Source of the DNA: Bacteroidales bacterium
GTDB lineage: Bacteria; Bacteroidota; Bacteroidia; Bacteroidales; UBA7960
Direction of reading: 5' to 3'
NCBI GenBank assembly: GCA_007118495.1
Contig: SKRM01000019.1
Location: 1 to 63,503, forward strand
DNA: 63,503 nucleotides
In this document: piece after piece, positions 2,464-10,369 of the stretch
Layout: the number at the start of each line of letters is the position of its first letter
Numbering within the stretch: position 1 is the stretch's first letter
The notes under the pieces: generated by a model
What the model was told of the DNA's origin: nothing
The model's database searches: none
Seen by the model: only the letters and a program-made list of their open reading frames with translations
Made by a program: the position numbers and the translations under genes

Positions 2464-2487
2464 TTTTTTTTTGCATGCAAAAAAAAA
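2464..2487. repeat. Perfect 24-bp palindrome, T9-GCATGC-A9
   Basis: Nine T, then GCATGC, then nine A, starting 2 bases after the stop codon of the flavoprotein. It could act as a bidirectional terminator-like element or as an operator; it overlaps the proposed -33 element (TTTG 2470-2473) of the trp promoter. Confidence 0.6.
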
Positions 2488-2499
2488 TGTTTAATATTG
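2470..2499 (+). promoter_or_regulatory. Probable trp operon promoter
   Basis: A TTTG at 2470-2473 is followed after 18 bp by TAATATTG (2492-2499), which matches TAnnTTTG at seven of eight positions. Transcription would begin around 2505, about 12 nt before the leader-peptide ATG at 2518. Confidence 0.5.
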
Positions 2500-2517
2500 C
2501 AAAGAAGAATTAAGCAC

Positions 2518-2601
2518 ATGCATATTTCCATATATACAACTAGCAATTGGTGGTGGCACGGCAACATAAGTTGGTGTGTTAAGCGTTATTGGCATAGTTG
2601 A
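2518..2601 (+). CDS. trpL: trp operon leader peptide (27 aa, five Trp)
   Basis: This small ORF begins ATG 2518 and ends TGA 2599-2601. It encodes tryptophan at residues 11, 12, 13 (tandem TGG codons at 2548-2556), 19 and 25, so 5 of 27 residues are the rarest amino acid. The ATG is preceded by an A-rich stretch (AAAGAAGAATTAAGCAC) as is usual for translation starts in Bacteroidota. It sits between the trp promoter and a rho-independent terminator 86 nt upstream of trpE, exactly where a ribosome-stalling attenuation peptide is expected. Function is inferred from composition and position, and reinforced by the competing RNA pairings annotated below. Confidence 0.85.
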   Translation: MHISIYTTSNWWWHGNISWCVKRYWHS

Positions 2602-2647
2602 TGTAACTAAAATATAACAAGGTATCCGAAAGACCCGCTTAACCACA
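2575..2647 (+). promoter_or_regulatory. Candidate antiterminator pairing of the trp attenuator
   Basis: GTTAAGCG (2578-2585, inside trpL) is fully complementary to CGCTTAAC (2636-2643), the 3' end of the terminator's left arm plus its loop. The pairing extends by TGT (2575-2577) with ACA (2645-2647) if C2644 bulges. It is mutually exclusive with the terminator. A ribosome stalled on the tandem Trp codons would leave 2575-2585 free, favouring this structure and read-through into trpE; a ribosome moving on would mask it. Confidence 0.7.
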
Positions 2648-2662
2648 GGCGGGTCTTTTTTT
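2629..2662 (+). terminator. trp attenuator (rho-independent terminator)
   Basis: A 10-bp perfect stem, AAAGACCCGC (2629-2638) with GCGGGTCTTT (2649-2658), a 10-nt loop, and a T-run to 2662. It lies between trpL and trpE and shares its left arm with the antiterminator. Confidence 0.9.
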
Positions 2663-2686: not shown

Positions 2687-4111
2687 ATGACATCACAAAG
2701 TAAAACCATGATGCTCCGGGCCAGGTTGAAACACCTTCAGGCTGATACATATACACCAGTGGGTATTTATTTGCGGTTACGAGATCGTTTTCCCCAATCT
2801 ATGTTGCTTGAGTGTGCTGATTATAGTTCACGGCAAGATTCTTTTTCATATATATGTCTGCAGCCCATGGCAGGAATAGCATTGGAGAACGATCAATGGA
2901 AACACTATTTTAAGGATGATAAGTGGCAAAAGGAGATAAGTAATAAGGAGAATCAGGTTACAGCCCTGGTGAAAAACTTTCTTTCGGGGATAACTCTTGA
3001 GAATGAGGTTGACACACGTTACATGCCTGGTGTATTCGGCTATACTTCTTATGATGCTGTCAATTATTTTGACAATGTGGACATCAGTCGTCCTGACCAG
3101 GAAACCGATCCCATACCGGTATTGCGCTATGATCTTTATCAGTTTGTAATTGCCTTTAACCATTTTAACAACACTTTGACAATATGTGAATTGTTGGATG
3201 ATGAATCAACATCAAAAATGAATGAAGTGCTTTCGCTATTGGCCAATCGTAATGCCACTTCTTTTCCCTTTGCCGCAAGGGGAAATGAACGCAGTCTTTG
3301 TTCTGATGAAGATTATATGGAAATGGTTAAGAAGGGCAAGGCGCATTGTGCCCGTGGAGATGTTATTCAGATTGTTTTATCCAGACGGTTTGAGCAGGAT
3401 TTTGAAGGTGATGAGTTTAATGTATACAGGGCCTTGCGTTCGGTGAACCCCTCTCCTTATTTGTTTTACTTTGATTATCTCTCGTATAAGCTGTTTGGAT
3501 CTTCGCCTGAAGCCCAGCTTCGAATACATCAGGGTAAGGCAACAATCAATCCCATTGCCGGGACGGTGGTTCGCACCGGTGATCCAATGGCAGATGCTGC
3601 CCTTGTTGAAGGCCTGCTCAGTGACCAGAAAGAAAATGCGGAGCATTGCATGTTGGTAGATCTGGCCAGAAACGACCTCAGCAAACATACCAGCCAGGTG
3701 ACAGTTGACACCTTCAGAGAGGTGCAGACTTATTCGCATGTAATCCATCTGGTGTCTGCAGTAACAGGTGTATTGGACCGAGAAACAGCCAGCTATCAAT
3801 TGTTTGCCGATACATTTCCGGCTGGCACCCTGTCTGGGGCTCCCAAGCATCAGGCAGTTCGCCTCATAGACAGGTATGAGCCACATGCCAGGGGTTTTTA
3901 TGGCGGGGGTATTGGTTTTATCGGATTCAATGGGTCGCTGAATCATGCCATTATGATCAGATCATTTCTGAGCCGCAGAGGTACTTTGGCCTACCAGGCC
4001 GGAGCTGGAGTGGTTATTGGATCAACCCCTGAAGGAGAACTGGACGAAGTAAATGGAAAGACCGGCGCTTTAAAAAAAGCCATTCAGCTGGCCGGAAGTT
4101 TTATTCAATAA
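2687..4111 (+). CDS. trpE: Anthranilate synthase component I
   Basis: The 474-residue protein is the chorismate-binding subunit of anthranilate synthase: with TrpG-supplied ammonia it turns chorismate into anthranilate, the committed step to tryptophan. The N-terminal part has LLECADYSSRQDSFSY, equivalent to the LLES-type element used for Trp feedback inhibition. The C-terminal catalytic half shows the hallmark blocks HCARGDVIQIVLSRRF, NPSPYLFYFD, PIAGTVVRTGD, HCMLVDLARNDL, TFPAGTLSGAPKHQA and FYGGGIGFIGFNG. Length is normal for TrpE and differs from PabB-like proteins. It is the first structural gene of a seven-gene operon, 11 nt before trpG, and is controlled by the attenuator at 2629. Confidence 0.95.
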   Translation: MTSQSKTMMLRARLKHLQADTYTPVGIYLRLRDRFPQSMLLECADYSSRQDSFSYICLQPMAGIALENDQWKHYFKDDKWQKEISNKENQVTALVKNFLSGITLENEVDTRYMPGVFGYTSYDAVNYFDNVDISRPDQETDPIPVLRYDLYQFVIAFNHFNNTLTICELLDDESTSKMNEVLSLLANRNATSFPFAARGNERSLCSDEDYMEMVKKGKAHCARGDVIQIVLSRRFEQDFEGDEFNVYRALRSVNPSPYLFYFDYLSYKLFGSSPEAQLRIHQGKATINPIAGTVVRTGDPMADAALVEGLLSDQKENAEHCMLVDLARNDLSKHTSQVTVDTFREVQTYSHVIHLVSAVTGVLDRETASYQLFADTFPAGTLSGAPKHQAVRLIDRYEPHARGFYGGGIGFIGFNGSLNHAIMIRSFLSRRGTLAYQAGAGVVIGSTPEGELDEVNGKTGALKKAIQLAGSFIQ

Positions 4112-4122
4112 ACCATCAGATC

Positions 4123-4710
4123 ATGGCAAAGATTCTTGTTTTAGACAATTACGATTCATTTACCTATAACCTGGTACATTATTTAAAGGAATCGGGGGTA
4201 GATGATGTAAGGGTGATACGTAACGATGTGATCGACCTGCCTGCGGTGGGTGCCTATGACGGAGTAGTGCTCTCACCGGGCCCTGGCATACCTGAAGAAG
4301 CAGGCTTGCTTATTCCCCTCATAAAAAAGTATTACTCCACCATGCCCATTTTGGGTGTCTGCCTCGGAATGCAGGCCATCATCAGGGTTTTTGGCGGAAA
4401 GTTGGTCAATATGAAACAAGTATTTCATGGAGTGGCTACTGAAGCAAATATTATTCAGCCTTCACATTATTTGTTTGCAGCGATGCCTCAGAAGATTATG
4501 GTGGGACGATATCATTCGTGGATGGCTGATCAGGAATGTTTTCCGAAAGAGTTGAGAATCGATGCAACAGACATGCAAGGACAGATCATGGCCGTCAGCC
4601 ACAGGATATTTAATGTTTGCGGGGTGCAGTTTCATCCTGAGTCTATTTTAACGCCTGACGGAAAACAGATGATCATAAATTGGGTTTCGGGGCTGGCAAG
4701 TGGTGGTTAA
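4123..4710 (+). CDS. trpG: Anthranilate synthase component II (glutamine amidotransferase)
   Basis: The 195-residue class I glutamine amidotransferase hydrolyses glutamine and passes ammonia to TrpE. Seen: N-terminal DNYDSFTYNLVHYL, oxyanion region LSPGPGIPEEAG, nucleophile motif GVCLGMQAI and the His-Glu pair in QFHPESIL. It is a stand-alone domain (not fused to TrpD or TrpE). The adjacent trpE argues for TrpG, though homologues often also serve PabB. It is separated from trpD by 53 nt without an obvious terminator. Confidence 0.95.
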   Translation: MAKILVLDNYDSFTYNLVHYLKESGVDDVRVIRNDVIDLPAVGAYDGVVLSPGPGIPEEAGLLIPLIKKYYSTMPILGVCLGMQAIIRVFGGKLVNMKQVFHGVATEANIIQPSHYLFAAMPQKIMVGRYHSWMADQECFPKELRIDATDMQGQIMAVSHRIFNVCGVQFHPESILTPDGKQMIINWVSGLASGG

Positions 4711-4763
4711 ATGTCTTCATACAACGGTGTTTGAATGAAAGCTTGATTTAAATAGCATTTTTT

Positions 4764-5759
4764 ATGAAAAATTTACTGGAGAAATTATTGGAGTCGCAGT
4801 ATCTGGATCGCATGGAGGCCGCTGAGTTAATGCGGGGTATTGCCGGGGGCGGGCTGAATGATGCGCAAATTGCGGCGGTATTGTCTGCGTATATCATGCG
4901 GGGGATTAATCTGGATGAATTACTTGGCTTCCGCGATGCCATCCTGGAACTGGCACACAGGGTTGACTTGCTTGATGGAGACACTATTGATGTCTGCGGT
5001 ACGGGAGGTGATCGGAAAAACACCTTCAATATTTCAACCCTGACGGCTTTTGTTGTGGCCGGAGCAGGAATTCCGGTGGCCAAACATGGTAATTACGGCG
5101 TTTCTTCGGGTTCAGGGTCTTCAAATGTCATGGAGTATTTTGGGTACAAATTCTCCAATGACCGTGATCATTTAGACCAGGAAATACACAAGGCTGGCAT
5201 ATGTTTTATGCACGCCCCCCTGTTTCATCCGGCCTTGAAAGCCGTGGGTGGTGTCAGAAAGCAATTGGGTGTCAGAACATTTTTCAACATTCTTGGGCCC
5301 CTTGTGAATCCGGCCTCTCCCAAATATCAGCTTAGCGGGGTTTACAGCGTTGAGGCCGGCCGGATATTCAGCTATTTGCTGCAAAGAGAGAAAAAGAAGT
5401 TCAGGGTGGTATACTCACTCGACGGATATGATGAAGTTTCTCTTACCTCGGCGGTAAAGTTATTCACCCCTGATGGTGAAGACTTGCTTTATGCCAGTGA
5501 TTTCGGATTGGGTACGCTTAATGCCGATGACCTTATTGGAGGGGATAGTGTTGAAGGAGCTGCCGGGATATTCATGGCCGTTTTGGAGAACCAGGGTACC
5601 CTTGCACAACAAGACGCGGTGGTGGCCAATGCTGCGTTGGCGATTCATTGTTACGGCAAATCAGAAAATCTGCATGAAGCCGTGGGCCTGGCAAGAGAAT
5701 CAATTGTTACAGGTGAAGCATTAAAAAAGTTTAAGACGTTAATAGACTTGCAATCATGA
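4764..5759 (+). CDS. trpD: Anthranilate phosphoribosyltransferase
   Basis: The 331-residue enzyme transfers phosphoribose from PRPP to anthranilate. Seen: the PRPP-binding DVCGTGGDRKNTFNIST near residue 75, the KHGNYGVSSGSGSS loop, and ALKAVGGVRKQLGVRTFFNILGPLVNP, which corresponds to the conserved R-LG-RT-FN-LGPL block. The N-terminal helical domain (LLEKLLESQYLDRMEAAELM) is present, so the protein is full length. The stop codon overlaps the trpC start (ATGA at 5756-5759), implying translational coupling. Confidence 0.95.
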   Translation: MKNLLEKLLESQYLDRMEAAELMRGIAGGGLNDAQIAAVLSAYIMRGINLDELLGFRDAILELAHRVDLLDGDTIDVCGTGGDRKNTFNISTLTAFVVAGAGIPVAKHGNYGVSSGSGSSNVMEYFGYKFSNDRDHLDQEIHKAGICFMHAPLFHPALKAVGGVRKQLGVRTFFNILGPLVNPASPKYQLSGVYSVEAGRIFSYLLQREKKKFRVVYSLDGYDEVSLTSAVKLFTPDGEDLLYASDFGLGTLNADDLIGGDSVEGAAGIFMAVLENQGTLAQQDAVVANAALAIHCYGKSENLHEAVGLARESIVTGEALKKFKTLIDLQS

Positions 5760-6589
5760 ATAAACTACAGGAAATACTCGCTGCAAAGCGCAATGAGGTT
5801 GAAAAGAATAAAGCCTTGTATCCGGTAAAACTACTGGAACAAAGTGTGTTTTTCGGGGCTGCACCCGTACCGCTCTCAGCTTATTTGCTCAGAGAAGACC
5901 TTCACGGCATCATTGCTGAATTCAAGCGCCGCAGCCCTTCACGGGGCATGATCAATGAGTTTGCTGATCCGGCAACCATCACACTGCGATATATGCAGGC
6001 TGGTGCATCAGCATTGTCGGTGATTACAGACAAGGACTTTTTTGGGGGCAGCAACAAAGACCTTGTGCTGGCCAGGCAAAATAATTACTGCCCCGTGTTG
6101 CGCAAAGATTTTATCGTGGATGAATACCAGATATTTGAATCACGAAGCATGGGGGCTGATGTGATCTTGTTGATTGCATCTGCCCTGACAAGAAAGGAAT
6201 TATTGCATTTTCACCGCGTGGCAAATGAGCTTGGGATGGAGGTGTTGGTTGAAATCCATGACCCGGTTGAACTTGATAAACTACCGGCAGATGTGCGTCT
6301 GCTTGGTGTCAATAGCAGAAACCTCAATGATTTTAGTGTGAACACTGATCATGCTTTAAAGGTCTGCAACCAGCTTCCTGATCATGTTATAAAAATTGCC
6401 GAAAGTGGCATCGATAGTCCTGAAACATTACTGAAGCTCAAAGAAGCCGGATATAAGGGCTTTCTCATGGGCGAACGTTTTATGCGCGAGGCCGATCCGG
6501 GTAAAGCCTGTTATCGTTTTATCAAACTATTAAAAGGTTTAATACAAGAAAAAACATTTGACCATGAGGGTTCAGAAAAAAATAATTAA
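5756..6589 (+). CDS. trpC: Indole-3-glycerol phosphate synthase
   Basis: The 277-residue TIM-barrel enzyme closes carboxyphenylaminodeoxyribulose phosphate to indole-3-glycerol phosphate. The catalytic and phosphate-binding blocks are visible: IIAEFKRRSPSRGMI (Lys and Ser of the active site), VLRKDFIVDEYQIFESR, GADVILLIAS, LLGVNSRNLNDFSVN, IAESGID and GFLMGERFM. It is not fused to TrpF, unlike in enterobacteria; TrpF is fused to TrpB instead. Its last 26 nt overlap the start of that next gene. Confidence 0.95.
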   Translation: MNKLQEILAAKRNEVEKNKALYPVKLLEQSVFFGAAPVPLSAYLLREDLHGIIAEFKRRSPSRGMINEFADPATITLRYMQAGASALSVITDKDFFGGSNKDLVLARQNNYCPVLRKDFIVDEYQIFESRSMGADVILLIASALTRKELLHFHRVANELGMEVLVEIHDPVELDKLPADVRLLGVNSRNLNDFSVNTDHALKVCNQLPDHVIKIAESGIDSPETLLKLKEAGYKGFLMGERFMREADPGKACYRFIKLLKGLIQEKTFDHEGSEKNN

Positions 6590-8456
6590 AGTCTGCGGAC
6601 TGAAAGACCCTGACAATATGCGGGCGGTAGGCATGCTCAGGCCTGATATGATGGGGTTCATATTTCACAGACCTTCACCAAGAGATGTAACTGATACTAT
6701 CGGTGATCTGCCACTGTTAGATATTCCGGCTTCTGTCACCCGGGTTGCTGTGGTGGTTGACCAAAGCCTGGAGTTTTGTCTTGGAATAGTTGAGAGATTT
6801 GGTTTTGGCGCCATACAACTGCACGGGTACCAGACACCTGAATTTTGCCGGACCCTGCGTAAGCATTGCCTGGTGATAAAGGCATTTGCTTTAAGAAATG
6901 CATTGCCGGTCGATGTTGCCGATTATGAAGGCTGCTGTGATTATTTTCTTTTTGACACAGCTGGTACTGCTGCCGGTGGCAGCGGTATGACTTTTAACCA
7001 CGCTGTCCTCTACAATTATCGTGGCCATACGCCCTTTCTTGTGGCCGGAGGTTTGGATCATGATACTTCGCTTAATATTCTGGATCTTCCCATACCTTAT
7101 ATGGCCGGTGTTGACCTGAACAGTCGTTATGAAATTACACCTGGCATAAAAGATCCGGATAGGGTTAACCGTACCATAACAAGTATTCGCCAGCCCCGGC
7201 CGCATAAACAAGGCAACCCTTTAAAAAACCTTCGCCTACAGAGGGTAAACCAATTGCCCCATCCTGATGAAAATGGGTATTATGGCGAATTTGGCGGTGC
7301 ATTTATTCCCGAACTATTGCAGGCAAATGTGGATGAACTGAAATCGGTATATAAACAATATATAAACGAAGAGGGGTTTAAAAATGCATTTGGGCAACTC
7401 CTGAATGATTATGTGGGCAGGCCAACCCCGCTTTATTATGCTTTAAGGCTATCTGAATTGTTTGGATGCCGTATTTACTTGAAACGTGAAGATTTGTGTC
7501 ATACAGGGGCACATAAGTTGAATAATGTGGTTGGGCAGGCTCTTTTGGCACAAAAGATGAATAAAAAACAAATTGTGGCTGAGACCGGAGCCGGGCAACA
7601 CGGCGTGGCTACGGCAACAGTATGTGCCATGCTTGGATTACCCTGCCGTGTTTTTATGGGAGAAAAAGATACCCGCAGACAAAAAGTCAATGTGTTGCGA
7701 ATGAAAATGCTTGGTGCTGAAGTTATACCTGTAACTTCTGGCAGCCAGACATTAAAAGATGCCACCAATGAGGCCATTCGGTATTGGATCAACCATCCTG
7801 ATGATACATATTACCTGATTGGGTCATCCATTGGTCCGCATCCATACCCGGATATGGTTGCCCGCTTTCAGTCGGTTATCAGCCATGAAATAAAATGGCA
7901 ACTAGCTGAAAAGGAGGGGAGGCAAGACCCTGATTATGTCCTGGCATGCGTTGGGGGGGGAAGCAATGCAGCTGGTGCGTTTTTTCATTTTATCGATAAC
8001 GGCTTTACCCGCCTGGTTGGTGCTGAAGCAGCTGGCAAAGGTGTCAATTCGGGACATACGGCTGCTACCATCTCTGTGGGTAGCCAGGGTGTGCTTCACG
8101 GAACCAAAACATTACTCATGCAAAATGCAGATGGACAGATTGTTGAGGCACACTCTATATCGGCAGGCCTTGATTATCCAGGCATTGGCCCGATGCACGC
8201 ATGGCTGCACCATACAAGCAGGGCCGGTTTTTTGGCCATAACTGACACTGAGGCCATGGAAGCTGCCCGCATGTTAAGCTTGACAGAAGGAATCATTCCT
8301 GCCATTGAATCAGCCCATGCCCTGGCATTGCTAAATAAGCTGTCGCTTAAAGAGACTGATGTGGTGGTTGTAAATTTGTCGGGAAGGGGAGACAAAGATA
8401 TGGAGACCTACAGTGAATACTACCCCCACTATGAAGAGAACAAACAAAAACAATAA
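6564..8456 (+). CDS. trpFB: TrpF-TrpB fusion: phosphoribosylanthranilate isomerase / tryptophan synthase beta
   Basis: A single 630-residue frame carries two enzymes. Residues about 8-205 are TrpF (PRA isomerase): KVCGLKDPDNM with the catalytic Cys, VAVVVDQS, AIQLHGYQTPEF, FDTAG, VAGGLDHDT and PGIKDPDRV. After a basic linker (about 206-230), residues about 231-630 are TrpB: ENGYYGEFGGAFIPELL, HTGAHKLNN with the PLP lysine, ETGAGQHGVATATV, VGGGSNAAG and HALALLNKL. I place the start at ATG 6564 rather than the TTG two codons upstream because it gives the usual short TrpF N-terminus. There is no stop or frameshift between the domains, so the fusion is real in this assembly. TrpB channels indole from TrpA, encoded 3 nt downstream. 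Confidence 0.95.
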   Translation: MRVQKKIIKVCGLKDPDNMRAVGMLRPDMMGFIFHRPSPRDVTDTIGDLPLLDIPASVTRVAVVVDQSLEFCLGIVERFGFGAIQLHGYQTPEFCRTLRKHCLVIKAFALRNALPVDVADYEGCCDYFLFDTAGTAAGGSGMTFNHAVLYNYRGHTPFLVAGGLDHDTSLNILDLPIPYMAGVDLNSRYEITPGIKDPDRVNRTITSIRQPRPHKQGNPLKNLRLQRVNQLPHPDENGYYGEFGGAFIPELLQANVDELKSVYKQYINEEGFKNAFGQLLNDYVGRPTPLYYALRLSELFGCRIYLKREDLCHTGAHKLNNVVGQALLAQKMNKKQIVAETGAGQHGVATATVCAMLGLPCRVFMGEKDTRRQKVNVLRMKMLGAEVIPVTSGSQTLKDATNEAIRYWINHPDDTYYLIGSSIGPHPYPDMVARFQSVISHEIKWQLAEKEGRQDPDYVLACVGGGSNAAGAFFHFIDNGFTRLVGAEAAGKGVNSGHTAATISVGSQGVLHGTKTLLMQNADGQIVEAHSISAGLDYPGIGPMHAWLHHTSRAGFLAITDTEAMEAARMLSLTEGIIPAIESAHALALLNKLSLKETDVVVVNLSGRGDKDMETYSEYYPHYEENKQKQ

Positions 8457-8459
8457 GCC

Positions 8460-9344
8460 ATGAGTACCAAACCGAATGATTCGTTGCTTGAACTTCTTCA
8501 TGATAGCCGGGAGGAAAAGCTGTTGTCTGTATATATTACGGCGGGCTTTCCCTGTCTCGAAGATACCATGCCTGACATGAAGACGCTGGCCCGTTCAGGG
8601 GTTGATTTTCTGGAAATCGGCATGCCGTTTTCAGACCCTCTTGCCGATGGACCCGTTATACAGCAGTCAAGTACAATAGCCCTGCAAAATGGGATGAGCC
8701 TGGGTGTGCTTTTTGAACAACTTTCTGCTTTCAATGGTATAATGCCTGCACCTTCACTGTTGATGGGCTACCTGAATCCGGTGCTGTGTTTTGGTCTTGA
8801 AGCTTTTTGTCAAAAAGCGCGGGCAGTGGGGATTTCAGGGGTGATCCTTCCAGATTTGCCCATGCGGGAGTACCTTGAATCATACCGCAAGGTTTTTCAA
8901 AAGCACAGATTACATTTTATTTTTCTGGTCACCCCCACAACCCCCGAAAGCCGCATCAGGCAGATTGATGAGGTGAGCACTGCCTTTATTTATGTTGTAG
9001 GGTCTTCTTCAACCACCGGAAACCAACATAGCGACCATGGCAGAGAAACCTATCTTAAGCGCCTTCTGGATATGAATCTGAAAACGCCATTGGTGGTTGG
9101 ATTTGGGATCAGCAATGCGACCAGCCTGCAACAGGCCTGGAGGTATGCAAAAGGAGCCATTACAGGAACTGCGTACATCGGGCGCCGCATGAAAGGCCAG
9201 AGCCCTGATAAGGCAGTCAGTGAGCTATTCCATCAGCTTGGCCTAAAGCCTCGCAGCACCTCCGATCGCCAGGCTCAAACCCCGGAGGCAGAAACAACAG
9301 TTGAAGCCTTCAAACCATTAACTTCAAAACTCTATATCCCATGA
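8460..9344 (+). CDS. trpA: Tryptophan synthase alpha subunit
   Basis: The 294-residue TIM barrel cleaves indole-3-glycerol phosphate to indole and glyceraldehyde 3-phosphate. Seen: VDFLEIGMPFSDPLADGPVIQ with the catalytic Glu and Asp, LLMGYLNPVLCFG, GVILPDLPMREY, FIFLVTPTTPESRI, FIYVVGSSSTTG and LVVGFGISNATSL. Compared with typical TrpA (about 260 residues) it has a C-terminal tail of roughly 30 polar residues (PRSTSDRQAQTPEAETTVEA), of unknown role. The stop overlaps the following DAHP synthase start by 4 nt. Confidence 0.95.
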   Translation: MSTKPNDSLLELLHDSREEKLLSVYITAGFPCLEDTMPDMKTLARSGVDFLEIGMPFSDPLADGPVIQQSSTIALQNGMSLGVLFEQLSAFNGIMPAPSLLMGYLNPVLCFGLEAFCQKARAVGISGVILPDLPMREYLESYRKVFQKHRLHFIFLVTPTTPESRIRQIDEVSTAFIYVVGSSSTTGNQHSDHGRETYLKRLLDMNLKTPLVVGFGISNATSLQQAWRYAKGAITGTAYIGRRMKGQSPDKAVSELFHQLGLKPRSTSDRQAQTPEAETTVEAFKPLTSKLYIP

Positions 9345-10369
9345 TCATACAAACCACACCGCATTGTTCAATGCCCGAAATGGAGCAAATATTGCAAGAG
9401 ATCAACAAACTGGGCTACAAACCTGCCCGGGTTGAAACCCAATATGGTTCATATATTGTATGTGTTGGCACAGCTGAATTTGATATCCGACTGCTAGGCA
9501 ACCTTTCTGGTGTCAGAGACATTCATATGGTAAGAGACCAGAGCAAACTGGTGTCAAGACAGTGGAAGGTTAAGTCATCTGAAATTAGCCTCGGCCCTGA
9601 CATGGTAATTTCAAGGAATGATCTGACCCTGGCCATGGGCCCCTGTTCGATAGAAAATGAAGAGCAGGTCGAAGATATGGTTGCATTTTTGAAGAGCCAG
9701 GGTGTCAGGCTTATGCGTGGGGGGGTATTCAAACCCCGCAGCTCGCCATATTCATTCAGGGGGCTTGGCCTGGAAGGACTAAAGATGTTTTATAACAAAT
9801 GCAATGAGGCTGGAATATTTGTGGTTACTGAGGTGATGCAGGTGTCGCAGGTGGCTGAGATGTATGATTATGTTGATGTTTTTCAAGTAGGTACCCGCAA
9901 CGCCCAAAACTTTAATCTGCTTGATGAATTGGGAAAGGTCGACAAGCCAGTTCTGCTAAAGCGGGGGATGTCTTCAACCCTTGATGAATTGCTGGCTTCA
10001 GCTGAATATATTTTTTCAAACGGCAATGAAAAGATCATTCTATGTGAGCGAGGCGTCCGTACATTTGAAAGGGCATACCGCAACACCCTTGATCTGAACG
10101 CCATTCCTTATCTGAAAGAAAAAAGCCACCTGCCTGTTTTTAGCGATCCTTCTCATGGTATTGGCTTAAGGGCATTTGTTGAAACCATGTCATTGGCTTC
10201 GTTAATGGCGGGTGCAGACGGACTAATTATGGAGATACACCGCCAGCCTGAAAGGGCCATGTCAGATGGACAGCAATCATTGAATTTTGACGAAGCCCGT
10301 CGATGCATCCGAAAAATCAGAGAAACCGTAAAATTCAGAAAAGAGTTGGCGCTTCTTGAAGACTTATAG
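9341..10369 (+). CDS. aroF: 3-deoxy-7-phosphoheptulonate (DAHP) synthase, type I-beta with N-terminal regulatory domain
   Basis: The 342-residue enzyme condenses phosphoenolpyruvate with erythrose 4-phosphate, the entry step of the shikimate pathway. Residues 1 to about 75 form a ferredoxin-like (FL) domain like that of Thermotoga DAHP synthase, where it mediates aromatic amino acid inhibition. The barrel shows MGPCSIENEEQVE, RGGVFKPRSSPYSFRG, VFQVGTRNAQNF, PVLLKRGMSS, ILCERGVRTFE, PVFSDPSHGIG and DGLIMEIHRQPERAMSDGQQSL. As the last gene of the trp operon it would be co-regulated by tryptophan through the attenuator, so chorismate supply rises with Trp demand. The gene symbol follows common usage for this family. 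Confidence 0.92.
   Translation: MIIQTTPHCSMPEMEQILQEINKLGYKPARVETQYGSYIVCVGTAEFDIRLLGNLSGVRDIHMVRDQSKLVSRQWKVKSSEISLGPDMVISRNDLTLAMGPCSIENEEQVEDMVAFLKSQGVRLMRGGVFKPRSSPYSFRGLGLEGLKMFYNKCNEAGIFVVTEVMQVSQVAEMYDYVDVFQVGTRNAQNFNLLDELGKVDKPVLLKRGMSSTLDELLASAEYIFSNGNEKIILCERGVRTFERAYRNTLDLNAIPYLKEKSHLPVFSDPSHGIGLRAFVETMSLASLMAGADGLIMEIHRQPERAMSDGQQSLNFDEARRCIRKIRETVKFRKELALLEDL

Follow-up and report, generated by a model that had tools for sequence, protein, structure and literature searches.

A conserved candidate leader-peptide attenuator before the trp operon of a Bacteroidales bacterium, related to a family already predicted in Bacteroidota

The trp leader of Escherichia coli, trpL, carries tandem Trp codons at codons 10-11 of a 14-residue leader peptide, and attenuators have reportedly been predicted in Bacteroidetes/Chlorobi as well, by Vitreschak et al. 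in 2004. For this phylum Rfam holds RF01692, 'Bacteroid-trp', the Bacteroidete tryptophan peptide leader RNA. Its source is Weinberg 2010 (PMC2864571), where the Table 1 row marks it as RNA (y), cis-regulatory (y) and Bacteroidetes; in the accessible part of that paper's main text, the words tryptophan and leader peptide are absent. The accessible text of PMC6414381 places this element upstream of the trp operon of Flavobacterium psychrophilum and states the idea of attenuation, and that of PMC9723704 presents strong clues for leader-peptide attenuation before amino-acid operons in the same species. Small ORFs reminiscent of attenuating leader peptides are described for B. thetaiotaomicron in an excerpt of PMC7366714, and the available portions of PMC4833913, PMC8305728 and PMC2395257 make no mention of trp attenuation in Bacteroidota. 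The literature searched, which covered few subscription papers, yielded no direct test of the attenuation mechanism in this phylum. An earlier interpretation of the present locus from its letters alone (the sequence-only reading) had regarded such an attenuator as undescribed for Bacteroidota. That judgement is refuted by RF01692, which is already an element of this type, so that novelty for the phylum is not supported; the kind is known in Bacteroidota by prediction, and the leader described here is a divergent member of it.

The window, by which we mean the whole stretch of 63,503 nucleotides analysed from a Bacteroidales bacterium, contains trpE as the first gene of the operon (2687-4111, + strand; best match NCBIfam trpE_most, 412 bits, E 3.4e-123, under the 517.7-bit cut-off). 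Next on the + strand come trpG, trpD, trpC, trpF and trpB fused into one gene, trpA and a gene for DAHP synthase (4123-10369), and spacing and strand suggest that trpE through the DAHP synthase gene would form one transcript. The trpF-trpB fusion occupies one ORF (6558-8456), which matches the NCBIfam bifunctional PRAI/TrpB model at 759 bits, just below its cut-off of 819. Judged by TrpE, the closest named relative in the comparison made is the Bacteroidales MAG CSSed10_126 (L033; 78% identity).

The window's leader shares with RF01692 the phylum, the trp operon and a UGG run inside a hairpin, and it answers to that family's description, a Bacteroidota element ahead of the trp genes whose hairpin contains the UGG run. 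A cmscan search placed RF01692 over 2498-2626 (full model, 1-131) with 24.9 bits against a cut-off of 49, and RF00513 (Trp_leader, the family of E. coli trpL) over 2542-2662 with 23.3 bits against a cut-off of 41; the best RF00513 score among 15 loci compared was 28.9 bits (L007). Strict filing under either family was rejected, as the scores are too low. RF01692 had no match in the organism's own genome at E <= 0.001 and none in the 15 loci at E <= 10 for 60 kb, a size at which the window's own match also goes undetected. Among 247 genomes of the order, 19 had an RF01692 match at E <= 0.001, 11 of them over the cut-off, and 17 of the 19 matches lay in genomes with a trpE match. Three of these 17 (G162, G163, G260) stand directly before trpE, like the window's leader; the other 14 are some 1.2-2.0 kb upstream of trpE and presumably precede a different first gene, whereas in the window trpE itself comes first. 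As far as PMC9723704 and PMC6414381 are available, the F. psychrophilum case has the phylum and the proposed mechanism in common with ours; it comes from another lineage of the phylum and has transcript evidence, while the window's leader is predicted from sequence.

A structured 5' region with a terminator would in principle also be compatible with a T-box, a riboswitch or a protein-bound leader that governs termination without translation. However, no Rfam family of the T-box or riboswitch kind was found over the leader (E up to 10 in one search and up to 5 in another) or over the 15 loci (E up to 10), and all three would leave the run of Trp codons unexplained; we find such control very hard to credit.

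The Trp codons lie in an ORF of 27 codons at 2518-2601 on the + strand, with an ATG start and a TGA stop, whose translation is MHISIYTTSNWWWHGNISWCVKRYWHS. As the sequence-only reading had stated, it contains five Trp codons (at 2548, 2551, 2554, 2572 and 2590), of which the first three are in tandem. These three (codons 11-13, 2548-2556) would form the Trp sensor, and 90 of the 110 leaders identified in relatives as described below have a WWW run. The motif itself is not enriched: the genome holds 76 TGGTGGTGG sites, compared with 88 for the backwards pattern. All 76 sites were screened by script. Fifteen of them lie in ATG-initiated ORFs no longer than 60 codons, and only one of the 15 also has a terminator behind it: the window's leader.

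An intrinsic terminator (2628-2662) stands between the leader ORF and the first gene, and its hairpin ends 27 nt upstream of trpE. The perfect 10-bp stem with a T-run that had been proposed at 2629-2658 is present (2629-2638 with 2649-2658), and G-U together with flanking pairs extend it to a 13-bp stem (2628-2659) with a computed energy of -19.3 kcal/mol. Folding of 2505-2687 gave a structure more stable than shuffled sequences (z = -3.4). The antiterminator consists of 11 pairs, in which region 2 (2574-2576 plus 2578-2585, with U2577 bulged), itself inside the leader ORF, pairs with region 3 (2636-2646), the top of the left arm of the terminator plus its loop; this is close to the pairing of 2575-2585 with 2636-2647 suggested earlier. 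The antiterminator and the terminator had been said to exclude each other. They do share the left-arm positions 2636-2640, but the antiterminator occupies only the loop and five of the 13 left-arm positions, so that the exclusion is partial. Region 2 also takes part in a protector hairpin (1:2; 2554-2581) formed by 2554-2560 with 2575-2581 and 2562-2565 with 2570-2573, for which the folded segment 2545-2590 gave -13.7 kcal/mol. The third Trp codon falls within the 5' arm of this hairpin, whose pairing and that of the antiterminator are mutually exclusive; the sequence-only reading contained neither this competing hairpin nor the promoter described below.

The effect of ribosome position was computed by masked folding, in which a ribosome footprint is assumed and folding is confined to the RNA downstream of it. 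Stalls on W1, W2 or W3, with the 3' end of the RNA at 2648-2652, gave a mean antiterminator pair probability of 0.96-0.97; with the ribosome on W4, W5 or the stop codon it was 0.00, and without a ribosome it was at most 0.06. Once the 3' end had reached 2655 or 2662, the terminator won at equilibrium in every stall state. E. coli trpL behaved similarly in the same computation: a ribosome stalled on either of its two Trp codons gave 0.91-0.92 as long as the right arm had not been made and 0.22 or less afterwards, with an E. coli terminator value of 0.86 at most, a figure limited by one non-standard pair among the eight listed. The two differed for a ribosome on the stop codon, where the antiterminator probability was 0.39-0.40 in trpL and 0.00 in the window's leader. 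Equilibrium folding of the full leader was rejected as proof of switching: it always gives the terminator, and largely does so for E. coli too. Since the terminator is favoured at equilibrium in all stall states once its right arm is out, the switch must be kinetic, and the masked folding supports such a switch without proving one.

For the comparison with relatives, trpE homologues were found in 19 of 47 genomes of the family (E <= 1e-80), 79 of 198 of the order and 76 of 247 of the phylum. At the same family threshold, 10 of the 22 genomes with completeness of 90% or more and contamination of 5% or less had a match; some fairly complete genomes of the genus also have none, by loss of Trp synthesis or through assembly gaps. 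Of the 140 upstream regions examined, 19 came from the family, 78 from elsewhere in the order (77 from the search of 198 genomes and one from a separate search) and 43 from the 54 same-class matches of the phylum search. The 135 regions that were at least 200 nt long were scored by a single rule: a short ORF (no more than 60 codons) that starts with ATG and has two or more Trp codons in tandem, with a terminator no more than 220 nt away. This combination was found in 110 of the 135 regions (13/14 in the family, 62/78 in the order and 35/43 in the class), as compared to 1 of 675 dinucleotide shuffles and 1 of 135 reversed strands. Applied to fourteen other six-base motifs, the rule picked out between 0 and 32 of the 135 regions, with most for AAAAAA (32), TTTTTT (18) and the overlapping GTGGTG (16). 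Fifteen of the 25 failing regions were judged by eye, and 14 of these still had a Trp run and a hairpin; in the remaining one (L069), the TGGTGG site shown is not that at -154/-151. In 83 of the 110 leaders the closest ATG in the same frame is 8, 9 or 10 codons upstream of the first Trp codon; in the window's leader it is 10. Twenty more distant matches from the phylum were scanned for Trp runs only; a WWW frame was visible in at least seven, within about 200 nt before trpE (L179, L180, L182, L184, L188, L193 and L195).

The alternative strands of the leader co-vary. In a swap test, pairing energies were computed between each leader's region 2 and either the left arm plus loop of its own terminator or the same segment of other leaders' terminators. 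Over all 110 leaders the cognate mean was -11.27 kcal/mol against -9.42 (sd 0.22) for swapped partners, and none of 5000 permutations was as low; in the dereplicated set of 86 the values were -11.48 and -9.52 kcal/mol (sd 0.26; z = -7.5; 0 of 10,000 permutations as low). The protector arm with region 2 gave -11.16 for cognate and -9.14 for swapped partners in the 86 leaders (z = -9.1). The region before the Trp codons, put through the same test in the 110 leaders, had no cognate advantage (-4.52 cognate, -4.71 swapped). What differs is the mean; for single leaders, the cognate partner ranks first in only 7 of the 110, with a median rank of 33. In 48 of the 86 leaders the first antiterminator pair falls 18-22 nt after the Trp run; swapped pairs reach this spacing in 35%, and the distance is therefore a mild signal only.

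Among the 15 nearest leaders, aligned, the antiterminator was paired in 94.8% of cells, as against 28-44% when slid. Changes on both sides affected 2 pairs in 3 cells, numbers reached by 68 and 85 of 500 shuffles, and the covariation score was reached by 82 of 500. Covariation in this set was rejected as proof of the antiterminator because the helix varies too little; the swap test was therefore run on the larger sets of 110 and 86 leaders. In the terminator of the same 15 leaders, 6 of 12 pairs had changed on both sides and none of 500 shuffles reached the covariation score. The consensus fold of the alignment consists of a protector-like hairpin with the Trp codons in its 5' arm, plus the terminator.

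TnaC is an arrest peptide that senses free tryptophan in the ribosome exit tunnel, and the leader might be a peptide of that type, with no role as a codon counter. The ORF does contain Trp, and the nearest leaders resemble one another in the residues that follow the Trp run (CVKR or CVER). This likeness is, however, accounted for by region 2 and its RNA pairing; apart from the Trp run, the peptides compared diverge across order and class, and WWW runs suit codon starvation in a biosynthetic operon. Sensing by an arrest peptide is thus, in our estimate, extremely unlikely.

Upstream of the ORF lies a predicted Bacteroidota promoter (2471-2499, + strand), with TTG at 2471-2473 as the -33 element, an 18-nt spacer and TAATATTG at 2492-2499 as the -7 element. 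Among relatives, 104 regions were of sufficient length for this test; 75 of them have a TANNNTTG box ahead of the leader (12 in the reversed control), and TTG occurs a further 16-22 nt upstream of the box in 58 (control, 1). We take these boxes to be of the -33/-7 type, with its usual distance to the transcription start. The median distance from the box to the first in-frame ATG is 18 nt, which suggests a leader 5' UTR of near a dozen nt; in the window, transcription would be expected to start near 2504-2507, about 12 nt before the leader AUG. A perfect 26-nt palindrome (2463-2488; T-run, GCATGC, A-run) directly follows the stop of the upstream gene and overlaps the predicted -33 element; it is possibly an operator, or due to chance.

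The hairpin lies 165 nt after the stop of that upstream gene (1392-2462) and might be its terminator, with the Trp-rich ORF a chance frame, all the more as TGGTGGTGG is a common motif in this genome and 14 other sites also fall in short ATG ORFs. Against this stand the promoter motif between the gene and the ORF, which recurs in relatives, the recurrence of ORF plus terminator in 110 of 135 regions, and the co-variation of regions 2 and 3. We regard this explanation as having next to no probability. The sequence-only reading had likewise held chance to be unlikely, and this is upheld by the stability of the fold, by the single site in 76 with both ORF and terminator, and by the contrast between relatives and shuffles (110/135 and 1/675).

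Bacteroidota start translation without Shine-Dalgarno pairing. Only 3 of the 110 leaders have AGGA, GGAG or GAGG within the 15 nt upstream of the start codon, a difference from E. coli trpL; over the 110 leaders these 15 nt are 54% A. The window's leader further differs from trpL in its longer peptide (27 residues), its short predicted 5' UTR and the position of region 2 inside the ORF. The two have in common the tandem Trp codons, the antiterminator, the terminator and the masked-folding behaviour for stalls on Trp codons.

Taken together, these data lead us to conclude with high confidence that the leader is a ribosome-mediated transcription attenuator of trpE-trpG-trpD-trpC-trpFB-trpA-DAHP synthase that would work like the E. 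coli trp leader. RNA polymerase would start about 12 nt upstream of the leader AUG, at which a ribosome would initiate without a Shine-Dalgarno sequence. When Trp-tRNA is scarce, the ribosome would stall on codons 11-13 and cover the 5' arm of the protector; region 2 would then be free to pair with the emerging region 3, formation of the terminator would be delayed and the polymerase would read into trpE. With ample Trp, the ribosome would either proceed and mask region 2, or depart and allow 1:2 to form, and in both cases the terminator would form and transcription would stop. For the stall-based attenuation originally put forward, support comes from the anatomy, the conservation and the pairing tests; the transcription start, the translation of the leader, the stalling and the response to Trp are predictions. 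An additional scenario is that attenuation is real but that its main product is a leader RNA or peptide that is released and acts in trans, as the accessible part of PMC7298713 describes for the Sinorhizobium peTrpL. No pointer to a role in trans was seen in the sequence, and such a role would supplement attenuation, not replace it; we consider it improbable as the main function. The leader is real and conserved, and it is very probably a working ribosome-mediated trp attenuator.

Leaders of a similar design precede the his operon. The hisG gene scored over the cut-off in 39 of 59 genomes, and among the 31 upstream regions compared (30 plus that of the organism's own genome; one measured just 151 nt), 23 contained a short His-rich ORF followed by a terminator, and none did so on the reversed strand. 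Five of the 31 regions, the own genome included, have two His units in series. In the own genome (L297; upstream of hisG at G000:C76, 76643-77188, - strand), the two His-rich leader/terminator units read ...MNFTIHNFHHHTHPPTGC and MTFLNHHTMHVHHLRSRRRTSSGMD. Two Trp leader/terminator units before trpE were seen in 6 of the 140 regions (L015, L075, L120, L143, L150 and L155); the pair in L015 (G040) lies at about 2950-3230 on the - strand, and the first of the two in L143 looks fortuitous. For Salmonella mgtCBR, the accessible part of PMC3641672 describes attenuators arranged in tandem, and none were found for Bacteroidota in the literature searched, of which coverage was partial.

RF01692 exceeds its cut-off in 11 of the 247 order genomes, as against 62 of the 78 trpE regions from order members outside the family for the leader rule, in samples that overlap but differ and with many of the 247 bound to lack trpE (79 of 198 have it in a like sample); this suggests that the Rfam model covers a small part of a wider set of leaders. 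A broader idea, which we put forward tentatively and ourselves rather doubt, is that leader-peptide attenuation is the default for trp and his operons in Bacteroidota, with 5' UTRs of about a dozen nt, and that it has evolved into serial double units (before hisG here and before a few trpE genes) that may give a steeper or two-step switch. If true, attenuation as a default would imply tight coupling of transcription and translation in this phylum, which to our knowledge is not established. Attenuation that needs a ribosome close behind the polymerase, found class-wide and in leaders nearly all of which lack a Shine-Dalgarno sequence, may offer a handle on the question of coupling in Bacteroidota.
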